DNA from: Streptomyces sp. ICBB 8177
GTDB taxonomy: Bacteria > Actinomycetota > Actinomycetes > Streptomycetales > Streptomycetaceae
Assembly (NCBI RefSeq): GCF_003144095.1
Contig: NZ_NSKH01000004.1
Coordinates: 166,727 to 230,726 of the forward strand
Length of the DNA stretch: 64,000 nucleotides
Direction: 5' to 3'
The position numbers and the translations under genes are program-made. This document shows, piece after piece, positions 1-14,070 of this stretch. Position 1 is the first letter of the stretch; each line of letters begins with the position of its first letter. The notes under the pieces were generated by a model. The model ran no database searches. It had not been told where the DNA came from and saw only the letters and a program-made list of their open reading frames with translations.

Positions 1-3000
1 ATCAGCGAACCGCACCGCATCACGCACCTGATCCGTCCAGTACTCCGGATCCGACCACGAACGCCCCACACCCACCGCCGGCTCATACGCCACCACCGGC
101 TCACGAAACTCCACCGACGCCAACTCCGCCCGAAAACCATCCAGCACCGGCTCCATCAACGGCGAATGAAACGCATGACTCACCGGCAAACGAGACACCC
201 GACGCCCCCGAGACACCCACCCCCCAGCAACCGCCTCACACACCCCCACCTCCCCCGAAATCACCACATCAGACGGACTGTTCACCGCAGCGACGGCAAC
301 ACGACCCTCCAACCCCACCAGCGAACCACGCACCTCCTCCTCACTCGCCGCCACCGCGAACATCCCCCCACCCGACGCCAACCCCTGCATCAAACGACCC
401 CGCGCCACCACCAACCGCGCCGCATCCGCCACACCCCACAACCCCGCCACACACGCCGCAGCGAACTCCCCCACCGAATGACCCGCCACCACACCCGGCA
501 CCACACCCCACGACCCCAACAACCGGAACAACGCCACCTCGAACGCGAACAACCCCGGCTGCGTGAACCCCGTCTCATCCACCAACCCCGCACCCACACC
601 TCCAGGAACAGCCCACAACACCTCCCTCAACGACCGCCCCAACAACCCGTCAACCACCCCACACACCTCATCGAACGCCCCCGCGAACACCGGAAACGCC
701 TCATACAAACCCCGCCCCATCCCCAACCGCTGACCACCCTGACCCGAGAACACCACCGCGAGCCGGGGGTCACGGTGTGCGGTCGAGGTGATCAGGCCGG
801 GGGCCGGACGGCCGTCGCGCAACGCGTGCAGTGCGTCGAGGAGTTGGGCGGCATCCGTGCCGAGGGCCACCGCCCGCCGCTCGAAGCGCGTTCGGGCCGC
901 GAGGGTCGCCGCAACACCGTCCGGGTCCTGGCCGTCGTACCATCGCGCGATCCGCCCGGCCTGGGTGCGCAGGGATTCCTCTGTGCGCGCGGTCACCGGC
1001 CAGGCGGTGAGCGTCCCGCTGGGCCGCGGGGCGGCCGGGAGGGCGGCGGTGTGACCGGGCTCCTCCAGCACGACGTGGGCGTTGGTGCCGCTGATGCCGA
1101 ACGAGGACACCGCGGCCCGCCGCGTTCCGTCCTCACGCCTCGGCCATCGCTGATCCGCCGTCAGGAGCCGCACGTTGCCGTCGCCCCAGTCGGCCTTGGT
1201 GGTCGGCTCGTCGGCGTGGAGGGTGCGGGGCAGGATCTCGTGGCGCATCGCCTCCACCATCTTGATGACGCCCGCGACCCCGGCCGCCGCCTGGGTGTGG
1301 CCGATGTTGGACTTCACCGAGCCCAGCCACACGGGGTGTTCGTCGTCGCGCCCGGCGCCGCGCCCGTAGGTGTCGATGAGGGCGTTGGCCTCGATCGGGT
1401 CGCCCAGCGCGGTGCCGGTGCCGTGTGCCTCGATCGCGTCCACGTCGCCCGCGCCCAGGCCCGCGTCCGCGAGCGCCTGTCGGATCAGCCTGCGCTGCGC
1501 CTGACCGTCCGGCGCGGTCAGCCCGTTGCTCGCGCCGTCCTGGTTGATCGCGGTGCCGCGGATCACGCCGTGCACCGGGTGCCCGGCACGTACCGCGTCC
1601 GACAGCCGCTCCAGTACCAGCACTCCGCAGCCCTCGGCGAACGAGGTGCCGTCGGCACCAATGGAGAACGCCTTGGCCCGGCCGTCCGGGGCAAGGCCGT
1701 TCTGCCTGCTGAACTCGACGAGGTTGCCTGGAGCGGCCATCACGGTGACGCCGCCGGCCAGGGCCATCGGGCACTCGCCGCGCCGCAGGGACTGCACCGC
1801 GAGGTGCACGGCGACCAGGGAGGACGAGCAGGCGGTGTCGACGGTGAGCGCGGGGCCGGTCAGGCCGAGGGTGTAGGCGACCCGTCCGGAGGCGACGCTG
1901 AGGGCCGTGCCGGTGAGCAGGTGGCCGTCCCCTGCGCCCGACGGGGCGGAGAGCCTGGGGCCGTACTCCGCGGCCATCGCGCCGACGAAGACGCCCACGG
2001 GCCTGCCGGAGAGCGCGGCCGGGTCGAGGCCCGCGCGTTCCAGGGCCTCCCACGAGGTCTCCAGCACCAGCCGCTGCTGCGGGTCCATGGCGAGTGCCTC
2101 GCGCGGGCTCAGCCCGAAGAACGCGGCGTCGAACTGCGGCGCGTCGTGCAGGAATCCGCCGTACGCGCTGGTGAGCCGGCCGGGCCCGTCGCCGAGGAGG
2201 GTGTCGAGGTCCCAGCCCCGGTCGGCGGGAAGGTCACTGATCGCGTCCGTCCCCTCGGCCACCAGCCGCCACAGCTCCTCCGGTGTGGTGACGCCGCCGG
2301 GGTAGCGGCAGGCCATGCCGACGATCGCGATGGGATCGCCCGCATCGGCCGGTGTGTTCTGAGCGGGCCGCGGTGCGGGGGCGGGGGCGGCGGCGGGGGA
2401 ATCGCCGTCCAGGAGGTCGTGGAGGCGGGCGGCGAGGCGCTCGGGGGTGGGGTGTTCGTACGTCACGGTGGTCGGCAGCGGCAGGCCGGTGAGCGTCCTG
2501 AGCCGGTCGCGCAGTTCGACGGTTCCCATCGAGTCGAGTCCGAGGTCGCGGAAGCTGCGCGCGGGATCGAGGGCGGTGCCGTCGGCGTGGCCCAGGACGG
2601 CGGCTGCGGCGTCGGTGACGGTGCGCAGGAGTGCGGCCGGGGTGGGAAGCGGCCGGGGGCGGTCGTCCTTCGAGGGCGCGGCGGCAGGGGTCGTCGCCGC
2701 GCGGGGGCGCGGTGCCTCCCCGATCCAGTGGCGTTCGCGCTGGAAGGCGTAGGTGGGCAGGTCGGTGAGGCGGGCGCCGGGGACGTCGTGCTCCGGGCTC
2801 CAGTCGACGGGCGCGCCGTGGGTGAACGCCTCGGCGAGGCTGCGGCGCAGCCGGTCCCGGCCGCCTTCGTCCCGTCGCAGGGTGCCCACTGCGGCGGCTT
2901 CGCGGTCGGCCTCCTCCGCGGTCTCCTGGACGGCGCCCAGCAGGATGGGGTGCGGGCTGCACTCGACGAAGAGCGTGCATCCGGCGTCGAGCGCGGCGCG

Positions 3001-5361
3001 GGTGGAGTCGGCGAAACGCACCGGCGAGCGCAGGCTGCGGTACCAGTACTCCGCGTCGAGGGTCGCGGTGTCGACGGGCTGCCCGGTGATGGCGGAGTGG
3101 AACGGGATGTCGGTGGAGACGGGGGCGATGGGGGCGAGGGCGGTCAGGATCTCGTCGCGTACGGCCTCCACCGCGGCGGTGTGCGAGGCGTAGTCGATGG
3201 CGAGGGGGCGGCTGCGCACTCCCATGGCCTCGAACCGCTCGCGCAGCACGGCGAGTTCGTCCTGCGGTCCGGCGAGCACGGTGGCGCGCGGGCTGTTGAC
3301 GACTGCGACGCCGACGGCGCCGGACGCGGGCAGTTCGGCGGCCACGACGTCACGTGGAGCGGCCACCGACAGCATCCTGCCGCCCGCGACGCGGGAGAGC
3401 GCGCGGGCACGCAGTGCGACGACACGGGCGGCGTCGGGCAGCGGCAGGGCGCCGGTCACCGTGGCGGCGGCGATCTCGCCCTGCGAGTGGCCCAGCACGG
3501 CGCAAGGACGCACGCCACGGGAGCGCCAGACCTCGGCGAGGCCCACCATGACGGCCCACAGCGCGGGCTGCACGACGTCCACCCGCTCGTGGCCGGGGGC
3601 GTCGGGCTCGCCGCGCAGGACGGCGAGCAGGTCGTAGTCGACGTAGGGGACGAGCGCTTCGGCGCACTCGGCGATGCGGGCGGTGAACGGGCCGGCCTCG
3701 GCGAGGAGTTCGCGGGCCATGCCGGCCCACTGGGAGCCCTGCCCGGGGAAGACGAAGGCGCAGCCGCCCGTGGTCGCGCGTCCCGCGATCACCTGGGCGC
3801 CGGGCCGGTCGTCCGCCAACTCCTGTACTACTGCGACGAGTTCGGCACGATCGGCGCCGAGCAGTACGGCACGCTGTTCGAAGAGGGTGCGGGTGCGGGC
3901 GAGGGAGAGCGCGACGTCGGCGGGGCGGGCGTCCGGCCGGTCGGCGAGGTGGGTGGCGAGGGCGCGGGCCTGGCCCCGCAACGCGTCATGGGATCGCGCG
4001 GACAGGATCCAGGGGGCGGGCTCGCTCGCGGCCTCGACGCCGTCCGGCGCACCGCCGTCCCCGCGGTCCGTAGCCGGTTCGACGGAGGCCAGCACCAGGT
4101 GGCAGTTGGTGCCGCCCATGCCGAACGCGCTGACTCCGGCCACCAGTTGCCCGGTCTCGCCGGGCCAGTCGCGTACAGTCCGCACGACTTCGAGGCGCAG
4201 GTCGGCCAGCGGGACGCGGTCGGAGGGCGTCTCGAAGGTGGGAGTGGGGACGAGGGTGCGGTGGCGCAGGGTCAGGGCGACCTTGATCAGGCCGGTGATG
4301 CCCGCCGCTCCCTCCAGGTGTCCCACGTTGCCCTTGGCCGATCCCACCAGCAGCGGGGATCGGGCGGCGCGGCCGATGGTGAGGGCGGCGCCGAGGGCCG
4401 TCGCCTCCACGGGATCGCCCACCGCGGTGCCGGTGCCGTGCAGTTCGACGTAGCGCACGGAGCCCGGGGTCACGCCCGCCTCGCGGCAGGCGGCGCGCAC
4501 GACCTCTTCCTGGGCCCGCGCCGACGGCACGGTCAGGCCCTCGCCGCCGCCGTCGTTGTTGACGGCGCCGCCGAGGATCACGCAGTGCACGGGGTCGCCG
4601 TCGGCGAGGGCGGCGGACAGCGGCTTGAGGACGACCATGCCGCCGCCCTCGCCGCGCCCGTAGCCGTTGGCGCGGCGGTCGAAGGTGTGGCAGCGGCCGT
4701 CGGGGGAGAGTGCGCCGAACCTGCCGAGCGCGGCGCTGGTCTCGGCCAGCAGGTTGAGGTTGACGCCGCCGGCCAGGGCCAGGTCGCAGGCACCGCGCCG
4801 CAGTTCCTCACAGGCCAGCCGGACCGCCACCAGGGACGAGGACTGGCCGCTGTCGACGACGAGGCTCGCGCCGCGCAGGCCGAACAGGTACGAGACGCGG
4901 TTGGCGATCAGGCTGCGGTGGGTGCCGGTGACGGAGTGGCGGCTCAGCGCCGACTCTCCCAGCCTGTCGTGCAGTTGGGCGTAGTCCCCGGAGATCGCGC
5001 CGACGAAGACGGCGGTCGGGGTGTCGCGTACGGATTCCGGGAGGAGGCGGGCGTCCTCCAGCGCCTCCCAGGCCAGTTCCAGCGTCAGCCGCTGCTGCGG
5101 GTCCATGGCGGCGGCCTCGGCCGGCGGGATGCCGAAGAACGCGGCGTCGAAGCGGTCGGCGTCCTCGATGAACCGTCCCCGCTCGTGCTCCTCGGCGCCG
5201 CCCTCGGCCAGCCGTCCGGCGGGAGCCGTGCCGTCCGCCTCGCCTCCGGCGCGCAGCAGCTGCCAGAACTCCCGCGGGCTCGCGGCTCCGGGCAGTCGGC
5301 AGGACATACCGATGACGGCGACCGGCTCGGCGGTCCGTGACCGTTCATCCACGGAAGACAT
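1..5361 (-). CDS. Modular type I polyketide synthase, loading module plus start of module 1 (partial)
   Basis: This is the first protein of a modular PKS; it loads a starter acyl unit and begins chain extension. Reading down the minus strand from ATG 5361, domains are KS (residues about 17-425), AT (about 530-830), ACP (phosphopantetheine Ser 944 in LGLDSM), KS (about 1007-1425) and an AT cut by the window edge near residue 1787. The first KS has Gln 173 (VDSGQSSS) in place of the active Cys, the hallmark of decarboxylating KSQ loading domains. KS1 has a normal Cys 1178 (VDTACSSS). The loading AT carries GHSQGE (Ser 626) and YASH (724-727), the methylmalonyl signature; AT1 carries GHSVGE (Ser 1629) and HAFH (1729-1732), the malonyl signature. 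The expected starter is therefore propionyl, then an acetate-type extension. Only about 16 residues precede the KS, with no docking helix, as expected for a first subunit. The five active-site codons checked all lie in one frame. An in-frame ATG at 5379 is the alternative start; 5361 has AGGTGG upstream. Confidence 0.95.
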
Positions 5362-5790
5362 CGACCCACCTATCGTCATGCCGCCATTCCCGTTCTCGGC
5401 GGGAACACGGAAGGGATCGGGAAAGGAGCAGCGGGAAATCGCGAGGGGCGCCGCGAGGTGCCGCGGTCGGCCGGCGGGCCGCGTCGGCCGGGGGTGTTCC
5501 GGCCGGTCGTCCCGGGGTGCGCCACCGAGCTTCCCCGGGGCGACGTCGCTGGTCAAGGCGGTACGGGAGGGTGGGCGGTGGCAGTCAGTGCCGGTCAGAA
5601 GCTGCCAGCGCGGGCGCGTTGACCAAGGGTGCGGGCGCATGGGTAAGTGGGTGCCATACCGGCTTCCCCGACGCGTCGCGGAAAGGGCTGGGAATCGCGG
5701 AAGCGCAGGCGCGGAACTGCCCCGCGTCCGTCCACCTCCGCTTCCGGTGTCCGAATCCGTCGCGTCCTCCACGGAAAGGGGGTGGCAGCC
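5362..5790. other. Divergent intergenic region, PKS / condensation gene
   Basis: This stretch separates the minus-strand PKS start from the plus-strand leader peptide and condensation gene. It must hold the PKS promoter and the promoter of the leader transcript. I find no convincing -10/-35 pair or coding frame in it; the open frames present are GC-driven and match no family. Confidence 0.5.
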
Positions 5791-5847
5791 ATGCGCATGG
5801 TGGTCTGTACGAAGACCGCGCGCCGGCGCGGCATCCGCCGGGGCTGA
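5791..5847 (+). CDS. Putative 18-aa leader peptide (uORF)
   Basis: A short frame, MRMVVCTKTARRRGIRRG, starts at ATG 5791 behind a purine-rich AAGGGGG stretch about 9 nt upstream and ends at TGA 5847. Six of its last eight sense codons or so are Arg or Gly, with a CGC-CGG-CGC run. It sits 123 nt upstream of the condensation-domain gene, and a 15-bp perfect stem-loop lies between the two. This order (RBS, tiny ORF, GC-rich hairpin, structural gene) is that of a translational attenuator. That it is translated is inference; a second in-frame ATG lies at 5797. Confidence 0.45.
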   Translation: MRMVVCTKTARRRGIRRG

Positions 5848-5885
5848 CGCAGGCCTCCCGGCTCCGGGGCGACCCGGGCTCTCTT

Positions 5886-5931
5886 CGCCCCCGCGTCCGG
5901 CGCGCCGCACGGCGTCCCGGACGCGGGGGCG
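5886..5931 (+). terminator. Strong hairpin in leader of the condensation gene (possible attenuator)
   Basis: A perfect 15-bp inverted repeat (5886-5900 with 5917-5931, 16-nt loop) rich in G and C ends 39 nt before the ATG at 5971. It could terminate the leader transcript or be a conditional attenuator for the downstream gene. Confidence 0.6.
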
Positions 5932-5970
5932 GGCCGGTGGCAACCAGACGACCCACGTACGGGAGGGATT

Positions 5971-7404
5971 ATGCCCATCGACGCCCCGCTGCACTTCGGG
6001 CAGTTGTCGACCTGGCGTTCCATCGAGACCTTCGCCGCCGACCGGCTGATGGAGGTGAACGTCCCGGGCTCCTGGGACGTGACCGGACTGGACGAGGCAT
6101 GCATCCTGCGTGCACTGCGCTGCCTGACGGAGCGTCACGAGGCGTTGCGGACCACGTTCCACACCGCGGGCGAGGTGCCGTTCCAACGCGTGCACGCGCA
6201 ACTTGAGCCGCGTGTCCACCGGTTCGAGGCACCCGACGCCGAACCCGGTACCGTGACGACCGCCCTGCGGGCCCTGCACGGCCGCGCGTTCCCGGTGACG
6301 GACGATCCCGGGTGGCACGTGGCGCTGCTGCGGGTGGGCGGGCGGCCGCGCAGGCTGCTGGTGTCGCTGTCCCACATGGTGGTCGACGTGTGGGCGGTGC
6401 GCCAACTGGAGGCCGAGTTCCGCGTGTTCGCCACCGGCGGGGTGCCCGGCGGTGAACCGGCGGCCCACCCTCGTGACCTGGCCGAGGCGCAGAGTGGTGA
6501 CGGCTGGGCGTCCCGTCGGCGCGGTGCGCGCACGTACTGGAACCGGGTGCTGGACGGGGGCCCGGGGCGCAACCTGCCCGTCCCTCCCGCGCGCACCGAC
6601 GAGTGCCGTATCCAGGCGACGTTGCGTTCGCACCGGCTGGCGGAGCTGACCCGTCAGGCGGCGACGGCGCACGGGGTGTCGCCGCAGAGTGTGCTGACCG
6701 CGATGACGGCCGCGGCGCTCGCGACCGTGCTGCGGCGCGACCGGGTCGTGCTCAGTGTGATGTGCGCGAACCGCTTCGACCCGCGCTGGCAGTCCATCGT
6801 CAGCACGATGAACCAGCTCGTCCCGCTGGTGTGCGCCACCGGCCCGGACACCGCGCTCGGCGCCTACCTCAAGCGCGTCCACCTGGGCGCCCTGCTCGCC
6901 TACCGGCACGGCTCCTACGACGTGGACATGGCAACCGAGCTGGCCGAACAGCGCGTCGGCGGCGTGTCCTTCGCGCACGACTGCTGGTTCAACTACGTCA
7001 CCGGCCCGGACGCGCCGCCTTCCGGTCCGCCGGGCACGCCGCCGCCTGCCGCGTTCGCCTGGACCCCGCCGCCGCGCCATGCGGGTCATCCCTTCTACGT
7101 GAGGGTCAACGGGGACGGCGACACCAGCGTCGAGATCACCCTGCGCGCCGATCCCGACCTGCTGCCCGCCGGGGCCGTGGTGACCGCGCTGCGCACGATG
7201 GTGCTGGGGGTGCGACGGGCGGCCACCTCCCCGGACAGCACGCTGGGTGAGCTGTCCGACGTGGCTGATCTGCCGTCACCTGCCGTTGCGGGGGCGGAAC
7301 TCGACGCCGGCCTCTTCCCGCCCGAGGTGCCGGCGGCACCACGGGTGAACCGGGGACCGGAGGCGTCGCGTCGGCCGCGGACGCTTCAGCTCACGCCGCG
7401 ATAG
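5971..7404 (+). CDS. Stand-alone condensation-domain protein (NRPS C-domain / acyltransferase superfamily)
   Basis: A 477-aa single-domain member of the CoA-dependent acyltransferase/condensation superfamily, which joins a carrier- or CoA-bound acyl group to an amine or alcohol. The N-terminal part (LTERHEALRTTF) matches the C-domain core. The active-site motif is SHMVVDVW near residue 133: the catalytic second His and the Asp of HHxxxDG are kept, while the first His is Ser and the Gly is Val. No adenylation or carrier domain is attached. ATG 5971 has GGGAGGG 4-10 nt upstream. The gene stands divergent from the PKS and probably acts in trans on its product (ester or amide formation), as PapA-like enzymes do; substrate and role are inference. 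Its last 19 bp overlap the convergent gene at 7386-7721. Confidence 0.85.
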   Translation: MPIDAPLHFGQLSTWRSIETFAADRLMEVNVPGSWDVTGLDEACILRALRCLTERHEALRTTFHTAGEVPFQRVHAQLEPRVHRFEAPDAEPGTVTTALRALHGRAFPVTDDPGWHVALLRVGGRPRRLLVSLSHMVVDVWAVRQLEAEFRVFATGGVPGGEPAAHPRDLAEAQSGDGWASRRRGARTYWNRVLDGGPGRNLPVPPARTDECRIQATLRSHRLAELTRQAATAHGVSPQSVLTAMTAAALATVLRRDRVVLSVMCANRFDPRWQSIVSTMNQLVPLVCATGPDTALGAYLKRVHLGALLAYRHGSYDVDMATELAEQRVGGVSFAHDCWFNYVTGPDAPPSGPPGTPPPAAFAWTPPPRHAGHPFYVRVNGDGDTSVEITLRADPDLLPAGAVVTALRTMVLGVRRAATSPDSTLGELSDVADLPSPAVAGAELDAGLFPPEVPAAPRVNRGPEASRRPRTLQLTPR

Positions 7405-13098: not shown

Positions 13099-14070
13099 AT
13101 GACGACATCGAAGGCAACACCGCAGCACAGGATCGGATCGGGGTTCGGCGCCGACAGCACGGCGGCCGAGGTGCTCGACGGGGTCGACCTGACGGGCAAG
13201 CTGGCCATCGTCACCGGCGGGTACTCGGGCCTGGGTCTGGAGACCACCCGGGCGCTGTCCGCCGCGGGAGCCCACGTGGTCGTGCCCGCCCGGCGGCCCG
13301 AAGCGGCCCGTGAGGCGCTCGCGGGCGTCGACCGTGTCGAGGTCGAGCGGATGGACCTGGGCGACCTCGACAGCGTCCGGGACTTCGCGGAGCACTTCCT
13401 CGCCTCCGGCCGCGACGTGCACATCGTCATCGACAACGCCGGGATCATGGCCTGCCCCGAGACGCGGGTCGGGCCGGGGTGGGAGGCGCAGTTCGCCACC
13501 AACCACCTCGGCCACTTCGCCCTCGTCAACCGGCTGTGGCCGGCCATCGCGGCGGGCCGGGCCCGGGTGGTGTCGGTCTCCTCGACCGGGCACCACAACT
13601 CCCCCATCCGCTGGGACGACCTGTGGTTCGAGCGCGGCTACGACAAGTGGGAGGCGTACGGCCAGTCCAAGACCGCGAACGTGCTGTTCGCGGTCCGCCT
13701 CGACGCGCTCGGCAGGGACGCCGGTGTACGGGCGTTCGCGGTGCACCCCGGCGGCATCCTCACCCCGCTCCAGCGGCACCTGACCCAGGAGGAGATGAGG
13801 GAGCGCGGCTGGATCGACGACAACGGCGAACCGGTGCCGGACCTCGGCTTCAAGACGCCTCAGCAGGGCGCGGCCACCCAGGTGTGGGCGGCGACCTCCC
13901 CCCGACTGGAGGGCATGGGCGGCGTCTACTGCGAGGACTGCGACATCGCCGAGCCCGCCCGAGCCGACGGGCCCCGCACCGGCGTGCGCGACTGGGCGCG
14001 CGACCCGGAGCAGGCGGCCCGTCTGTGGGAGCTGTCGGCGCGGCTGACCGGCGTCGACGCGTTCGCCTGA
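13099..14070 (+). CDS. Short-chain dehydrogenase/reductase
   Basis: A 323-aa SDR with a Rossmann NAD(P) site (TGGYSGLGLE, near residue 38), NNAG-type IDNAGIM, catalytic Ser in VSSTGHH and the YGQSK Tyr/Lys pair. It is longer than the 250-aa classical type and resembles the retinol-dehydrogenase-like oxidoreductases of actinomycetes; the substrate is unknown. ATG 13099 was chosen over an in-frame ATG at 13066 because the latter lies inside the operator palindrome. It stands alone, divergent from SRAP and convergent with the ECF operon. Probably induced through the 16-bp dyad upstream. Confidence 0.9.
   Translation: MTTSKATPQHRIGSGFGADSTAAEVLDGVDLTGKLAIVTGGYSGLGLETTRALSAAGAHVVVPARRPEAAREALAGVDRVEVERMDLGDLDSVRDFAEHFLASGRDVHIVIDNAGIMACPETRVGPGWEAQFATNHLGHFALVNRLWPAIAAGRARVVSVSSTGHHNSPIRWDDLWFERGYDKWEAYGQSKTANVLFAVRLDALGRDAGVRAFAVHPGGILTPLQRHLTQEEMRERGWIDDNGEPVPDLGFKTPQQGAATQVWAATSPRLEGMGGVYCEDCDIAEPARADGPRTGVRDWARDPEQAARLWELSARLTGVDAFA

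Follow-up and report, generated by a model that had tools for sequence, protein, structure and literature searches.

Why should the codon style of a polyketide synthase (PKS) gene change abruptly at the opening of a single acyltransferase (AT) domain? The window, by which we mean the whole stretch of DNA analysed, comprises 64 000 nucleotides of Streptomyces sp. ICBB 8177 (genome G000, contig NZ_NSKH01000004.1, here C24) and starts at C24 base 166727 within the AT of PKS module 1 (AT1; Table 1). An earlier note on this DNA had placed a codon-use break at about 745, on the FSGQGGQ motif, and had proposed a transplanted or gene-converted AT domain with a changed choice of extender. The break is real and very strong. 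When a Dirichlet-multinomial change-point model is fitted to 1763 codons (5289 to 1), the switch falls at window position 759 (six best positions 747–765; log Bayes factor 203), three codons ahead of FSGQGGQ and within about 15 bases of the first placement; in the 5′ part the same model gives no second change point, the best further split scoring below 0. TTG makes up three of 160 Leu codons before the break and 19 of 21 after it (Fisher p = 1.3e-20; about 18 of 20 by the first count), and third-position C falls from 894 of 1510 codons to 15 of 253. After the break Gly is encoded by GGG (22), GGT (16) and GGA (1) and never by GGC, and Val by GTG in 37 of 42 cases, as had also been described. 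The 248 codons from 744 down end in G (173), T (60), C (14) or A (1). In 50-codon steps, usage is normal to about 790, with third-position C mostly about 0.5–0.7 from 5139 down, and then shifts suddenly. On the coding strand, GC skew and TA skew both reach about +0.6 in the two 250 bp segments lying fully within the tract, and around it they are near zero. The style of the tract is one that follows from a shortage of C and A on the coding strand. The upstream domains of the same gene have ordinary codons where these were counted, and the loading ketosynthase (KS) is one that we take, from its active-site motif, to be of the KSQ type.

Table 1. Features at the left edge of the window, in window coordinates and, where given, in those of contig C24.
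Feature	Window	C24	Strand	Basis	Remarks
PKS open reading frame	7089..1		-	Open reading frame	Open at left window edge
Skewed tract (putative GRINS), 5′ part, AT of module 1	1..759		-	Change point and skews	253 codons; cut by assembly gap
Pfam AT match of module 1		166721-167479	-	Pfam	Final bases fall inside N gap
AT2 copy of repeat, compared with window	1..138	up to 166716	-		2 mismatches in 138 nt
Stretch identical to end of contig C3, where AT2 begins	663..745		-	DNA search	83 nt
KS of module 1, N-terminal Pfam part	1594..2337	168320-169063	-	Pfam	Ordinary codons
Loading-module AT	2812..3756	169538-170482	-	Pfam	GHSQG/YASH type; ordinary codons, TTG 0/28
Loading KS	4609..5328	171335-172054	-	Pfam and translation	Gln in active-site motif VDSGQSSS

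The edge of the window adjoins a scaffold gap of 10 N (C24:166717–166726) and is therefore not the far end of the skewed tract. Left of the gap the AT continues, and the skewed style runs for about 240 nt more, ending in SSLSPRST directly before ATVTATARRD. The 3′ change point has a log Bayes factor of 35 left of the gap and of 4.6 in contig C3, where little of the tract is present. C3 (5105 bp) takes up the reading frame directly after the last codon of the window; the remainder of the module and a stop are followed there by a further gene encoding a KS, and the contig breaks off after the first 83 bp of a second AT (AT2), these 83 bp being identical to the start of the AT in the window. The same order is found without interruption in Streptantibioticus parmotrematis Ptm05 (genome G001, contig C45, NZ_JAINVZ010000005.1), a member of the same genus as ICBB 8177: window 5289..1 corresponds to C45:247520–252796 and C3 to 252798–257905 (89%), and the part of C24 left of the gap picks up again at 258433, matching at 92% over 30 kb. 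From this collinearity it follows that the scaffold omits C3 and about 527 bp of AT2, roughly 5.6 kb in all. The AT1/AT2 repeat is collapsed in the ICBB 8177 assembly, judging from these alignments, and a gene model that spans the gap would be chimeric. When the genome of ICBB 8177 was searched at the DNA level for more copies, only the copy in the window, a 137 bp piece left of the gap and the 83 bp piece at the end of C3 turned up. Elsewhere in this genome, contig C5:892–2829 encodes a KS and a partial AT, which by DNA search have no part in the skewed repeat.

In S. parmotrematis the cluster is free of gaps, with no N in the 60 kb read. By Pfam, one gene, with two ACPs in total, encodes a loading KS-AT-ACP followed by KS-AT-DH-KR-ACP; the gene after it opens with docking-KS-AT-DH. 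Skewed tracts of 843 bp (252035–252877) and 846 bp (257809–258654) lie in AT1 and AT2, respectively, with a GC skew of +0.52 and a TA skew of +0.57. Both begin within about one residue of the same ten-residue anchor (sequence not shown here) and end beside SLSPQST. From a point 15 nt ahead of the anchor to one 878 nt past it, the two copies differ at only three sites (offsets 749, 825 and 863), so that the identical stretch outruns the skewed one by about 50 nt at its 3′ end; outside the tracts the identity of the flanks falls to about 0.3–0.8 per 50-column window. This near-identity could be partly an effect of draft assembly, though the three differences exist and ICBB 8177 was assembled separately. 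We infer that ICBB 8177 has the same AT1/AT2 arrangement. Farther along the cluster, C45:266536–275493 of S. parmotrematis (L029:6536–15493), which matches C24 at about 151–159 kb, encodes one PKS protein with two KS and a single AT by Pfam, and one of its modules seems to be without an AT of its own. The module-3 AT of ICBB 8177 (C24:160770–161720) has neither GHSxG nor HAFHS by simple pattern and clusters with a distinct set of ATs.

AT1 and AT2 appear to evolve in concert, most simply by gene conversion. AT1 and AT2 of S. parmotrematis are 99.8% identical over 280 codons, whereas the AT1 of ICBB 8177 is 91.8% identical to the AT1 of S. parmotrematis and equally distant from its AT2. The two copies of ICBB 8177 are readable together in three pieces (83, 138 and 135 nt, with 0, 2 and 0 mismatches), and the identity of the full copies in this genome is inferred from these 356 nt. 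Over the same 356 nt the paralogues mismatch at two sites in ICBB 8177 and three in S. parmotrematis, whereas 30 sites (3, 11 and 16 in the three pieces) differ between the species yet agree between the copies within each. Copies diverging since before the species split would not give 30 such sites, which argues for homogenisation within each lineage. The gene-conversion half of the earlier proposal thus holds up: AT1 is near-identical to AT2, with three differing sites over about 894 bp in S. parmotrematis against 8% between the AT1 orthologues and the sharp fall in the flanks. In AT1 the two species differ at 20 of 141 four-fold sites; the corresponding counts are 174 of 952 for the sequence upstream and 130 of 582 for that downstream, so the tract is not unusually fast. 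As to which copy was the donor, 22 columns distinguish the AT1 clade from the AT2 clade, and at these S. parmotrematis agrees with AT1 at ten, with AT2 at eight and with neither at four; two clade tests gave p = 0.51 and 0.49, and an earlier tree placed the Streptantibioticus ATs toward AT1 with weak support (88/32).

Orthologues were sought by a protein search of the family (394 genomes; only a few candidates were scored in each, six in those listed, and at least 33 of the 394 gave a match at E = 1e-75 or better) and by a DNA search that scored 238 of the 394; genome names came from a scan giving the best 80 of 516. Among the matches listed, the closest ATs outside the genus are those of Actinacidiphila alni (G031), Streptomyces sp. 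CBMA29 (G129) and a third genome, G081. The order loading AT, AT1, AT2 is kept in A. alni and G081, and in CBMA29 AT2 lies on a separate contig. These orthologues resemble the Streptantibioticus domains in their place after the loading AT, in their malonyl-type motifs (all carry GHSVG and HAFH) and in belonging to one clade; they differ in being unskewed (−0.07 to 0.15) and in that AT1 and AT2 are not homogenised, with a protein identity of 59% in A. alni and 61% in CBMA29. In a tree with 33 other ATs, mostly picked by likeness to AT1, the eight AT1/AT2 rows come together as a single clade (99/97); an earlier tree with seven of the eight gave 100/98. In a tree that also included the loading AT of G081 (a very long branch), where the AT1/AT2 clade had 89/96, the AT1s and AT2s of the other genomes fell into two sub-clades (100/98 and 100/99), and the Streptantibioticus ATs into one merged type. 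The loading ATs of the two Streptantibioticus genomes group with those of A. alni and CBMA29 with moderate support (92/73), as expected of vertical descent. Among the ATs compared, the closest kin do not, then, lie outside the cluster's own orthologues, and the trees point to the module-1 AT as a resident domain recoded in its own lineage, a transplant being unsupported; the recoding probably arose in the Streptantibioticus lineage.

AT1 carries GHSVG and HAFHSPLM, and GHSVG and HAFH are present in AT1 and AT2 of the five genomes in which they were readable, except in the AT2 of ICBB 8177, the middle of which is missing from the assembly; the combination GHSxG and HAFH is one that we take to mark malonyl-CoA-type ATs. 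Both domains are thus predicted to be of the malonyl-CoA type, with no sign of a changed extender choice, the motifs being the same in skewed and unskewed genomes. Of the earlier reading as a whole, the codon break and the gene conversion stand; the transplant is not supported, as the nearest matches listed outside the genus are positional orthologues of the same cluster and join it in one clade, and neither, to judge from the motifs, is the extender change. A candidate for a true AT exchange at this position is seen in two other genomes with a related loading module and KS1, G017 (contig C102, L042, AT at 6562) and G154 (contig C1, L046, AT at 13547), the module-1 AT of which is of the GHSQG/YAAH type and forms a long branch near methylmalonyl-type ATs.

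In the account that we propose, a tract of roughly 845 bp that nearly coincides with the AT domain would have had its coding strand driven toward G and T in the ATs of modules 1 and 2, gene conversion would keep both copies near-identical, and a bias at the DNA level would have set the composition. A foreign AT, brought by horizontal transfer with the codon style of its donor and a new extender specificity, would suit the sharp borders, flush with the domain, and an exchange seems to have occurred at this very place in G017 and G154; we consider it very improbable, given the 99/97 clade of positional orthologues, the malonyl-type motifs throughout and the fact that no other AT is as skewed in a set of 149 distinct ones, most of them selected for their likeness to AT1, so that no donor with the style of the tract was seen among them. 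A chimeric contig at the window edge is scarcely credible: although the tract ends at the 10-N gap and the scaffold join there skips C3, no break interrupts the 5′ border in the window, and S. parmotrematis, assembled separately and free of N over the 60 kb read, has this border to within a few codons of the same place. An artefact is accordingly refuted for the tract itself and holds for the gap. The chance that the style belongs to the remaining gene cluster is practically negligible, since the skew stops about 240 nt left of the gap and other modules are unskewed; this candidate was rejected because only AT1 and AT2 are skewed in S. parmotrematis, the flanks and later modules being ordinary over 60 kb. 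The earlier note had itself named one style running through all later modules as the finding that would overturn it, and this does not hold.

Selection on codons, for translation speed or for folding at the domain border, could also have made the style, with conversion merely spreading it. Third positions are indeed hit hardest: against the AT1 of A. alni, the skewed AT differs in the A/C to G/T direction by 115:2 at position 3. At positions 1 and 2 of replaced residues, however, the differences lean the same way (77:13 toward G/T, p = 3e-12), and G- and T-ending codons are both used, 16 of the 20 four-fold differences between the AT1s of the two Streptantibioticus genomes being G/T swaps, which look like avoidance of C and A and not like the choice of particular codons. 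We therefore regard codon selection as improbable, and a bias at the DNA level as the likelier source of the composition of the tract. All ten comparisons of the two skewed ATs with five unskewed orthologues lean from A/C to G/T and none of five controls does; these counts record how the sequences differ and do not reconstruct changes, and the comparisons are not independent of one another. The protein composition differs too, Gly, Val and Trp together making up 0.35 of the AT1 of ICBB 8177 against 0.19–0.20 in AT1 and AT2 of A. alni and AT1 of CBMA29. Across the 149 ATs (13 of 162 rows removed as duplicates), among which the rows of the two Streptantibioticus genomes are the most skewed, third-position GC skew tracks a lower content of Pro, Thr, His, Gln and Asn (rho = −0.62, uncorrected for relatedness); in eight independent pairs the trend was not significant (median p = 0.25). 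AT fragments of fewer than 180 profile positions were dropped from the skew and motif table, and those of fewer than 220 from the set of 149. The AT1 of ICBB 8177 entered both with 257 residues, running through the N gap, was cut at N for the composition correlation, and was represented in the trees, identities, independent pairs and bias counts by the 248 residues ahead of the gap.

The tract is very probably a GRINS (genetic repeat of intense nucleotide skews) in AT1 and AT2, kept near-identical by gene conversion, as judged from composition and repeat structure. The name reportedly goes back to a 2021 paper in PNAS. Section 7 of one source describes elements of about 1 kb, with an identity often above 90%, skews above 25% and a suggested role in conversion (PMC10394414); a scan procedure and the example of azalomycin F are given in another (PMC9899208). 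As used here, the definition asks for a stretch no shorter than 500 bp (about 1 kb) that is more than 80% identical to a second one within the same PKS, and for GC and TA skews above 0.15 (in the scan of PMC9899208) or above 25% (in section 7 of PMC10394414). S. parmotrematis has two 900 bp regions with an identity of 0.99–1.00, and the skews are those given above for its tracts, 0.54 (GC) and 0.58 (TA) being the values for the AT1 of ICBB 8177; the host is an assembly-line cis-AT PKS of an actinobacterium, with KS-AT-DH-KR-ACP modules by Pfam in S. parmotrematis, and the paralogues are nearer to each other than to their orthologues. In the scan, in which BLAST identities substitute for the published pairwise alignment, no region of 300 bp or more other than the two AT tracts was found in 60 kb of S. 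parmotrematis. On C24 of ICBB 8177 it gave one skewed stretch (166470–167520) and no duplication reaching 300 bp, since most of AT2 is absent from the assembly. No other stretch of at least 300 bp passes both skew limits in C24:107700–230726 or in the 60 kb of S. parmotrematis. The tract shares with the GRINS so described a length of about 0.85–0.9 kb, a near-identical counterpart in the same PKS, skews above 25% for both GC and TA, a cis-AT actinobacterial PKS as host and a suggested link to conversion. It resembles the azalomycin F elements of modules 3 and 6 in that near-identical skewed repeats are common to two modules, and differs in that the repeat is described there in a KS-AT-DH-KR tetradomain and lies here in the AT alone; the account of azalomycin F interprets its repeats as duplication or conversion (PMC9899208). 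A literature search judged by titles found no paper on the present cluster. Further GRINS are likely in other PKSs of the family, those of G198 (contig C3, L045; ATs at 6432, 11640 and 17284) and G232 (L156), which have several strongly skewed ATs (GC skew 0.30–0.40); the skewed ATs of G198 span both the HAFH and the YASH types.

The skewed AT tract is thus very probably a further, well-resolved example of an already known element, GRINS, and it brings an error of assembly to light. Assembly failed at the repeat, and most of one module was lost from view, so that a product predicted from the genome of ICBB 8177 would probably lack one extension unit. A review connects GRINS with the diversification of ATs (PMC11907408), which the elements are said to speed; here two ATs of the same type were made alike and the extender motifs are unchanged. 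The broader proposition that a strand-asymmetric process at the DNA level, biased conversion or mutation, skews a domain-sized tract, overrides protein constraint so as to move amino acids as well as codons, and that the skew is kept by repeated exchange between these adjacent modules without extender change stands, in our estimation, at about an even chance; on this reading extender swapping would not explain why the element persists. Both skew and conversion mark these domains in the two Streptantibioticus genomes, and neither does in A. alni, CBMA29 and G081; this compact natural series lends itself to tracing the origin of the skew and its order relative to conversion.
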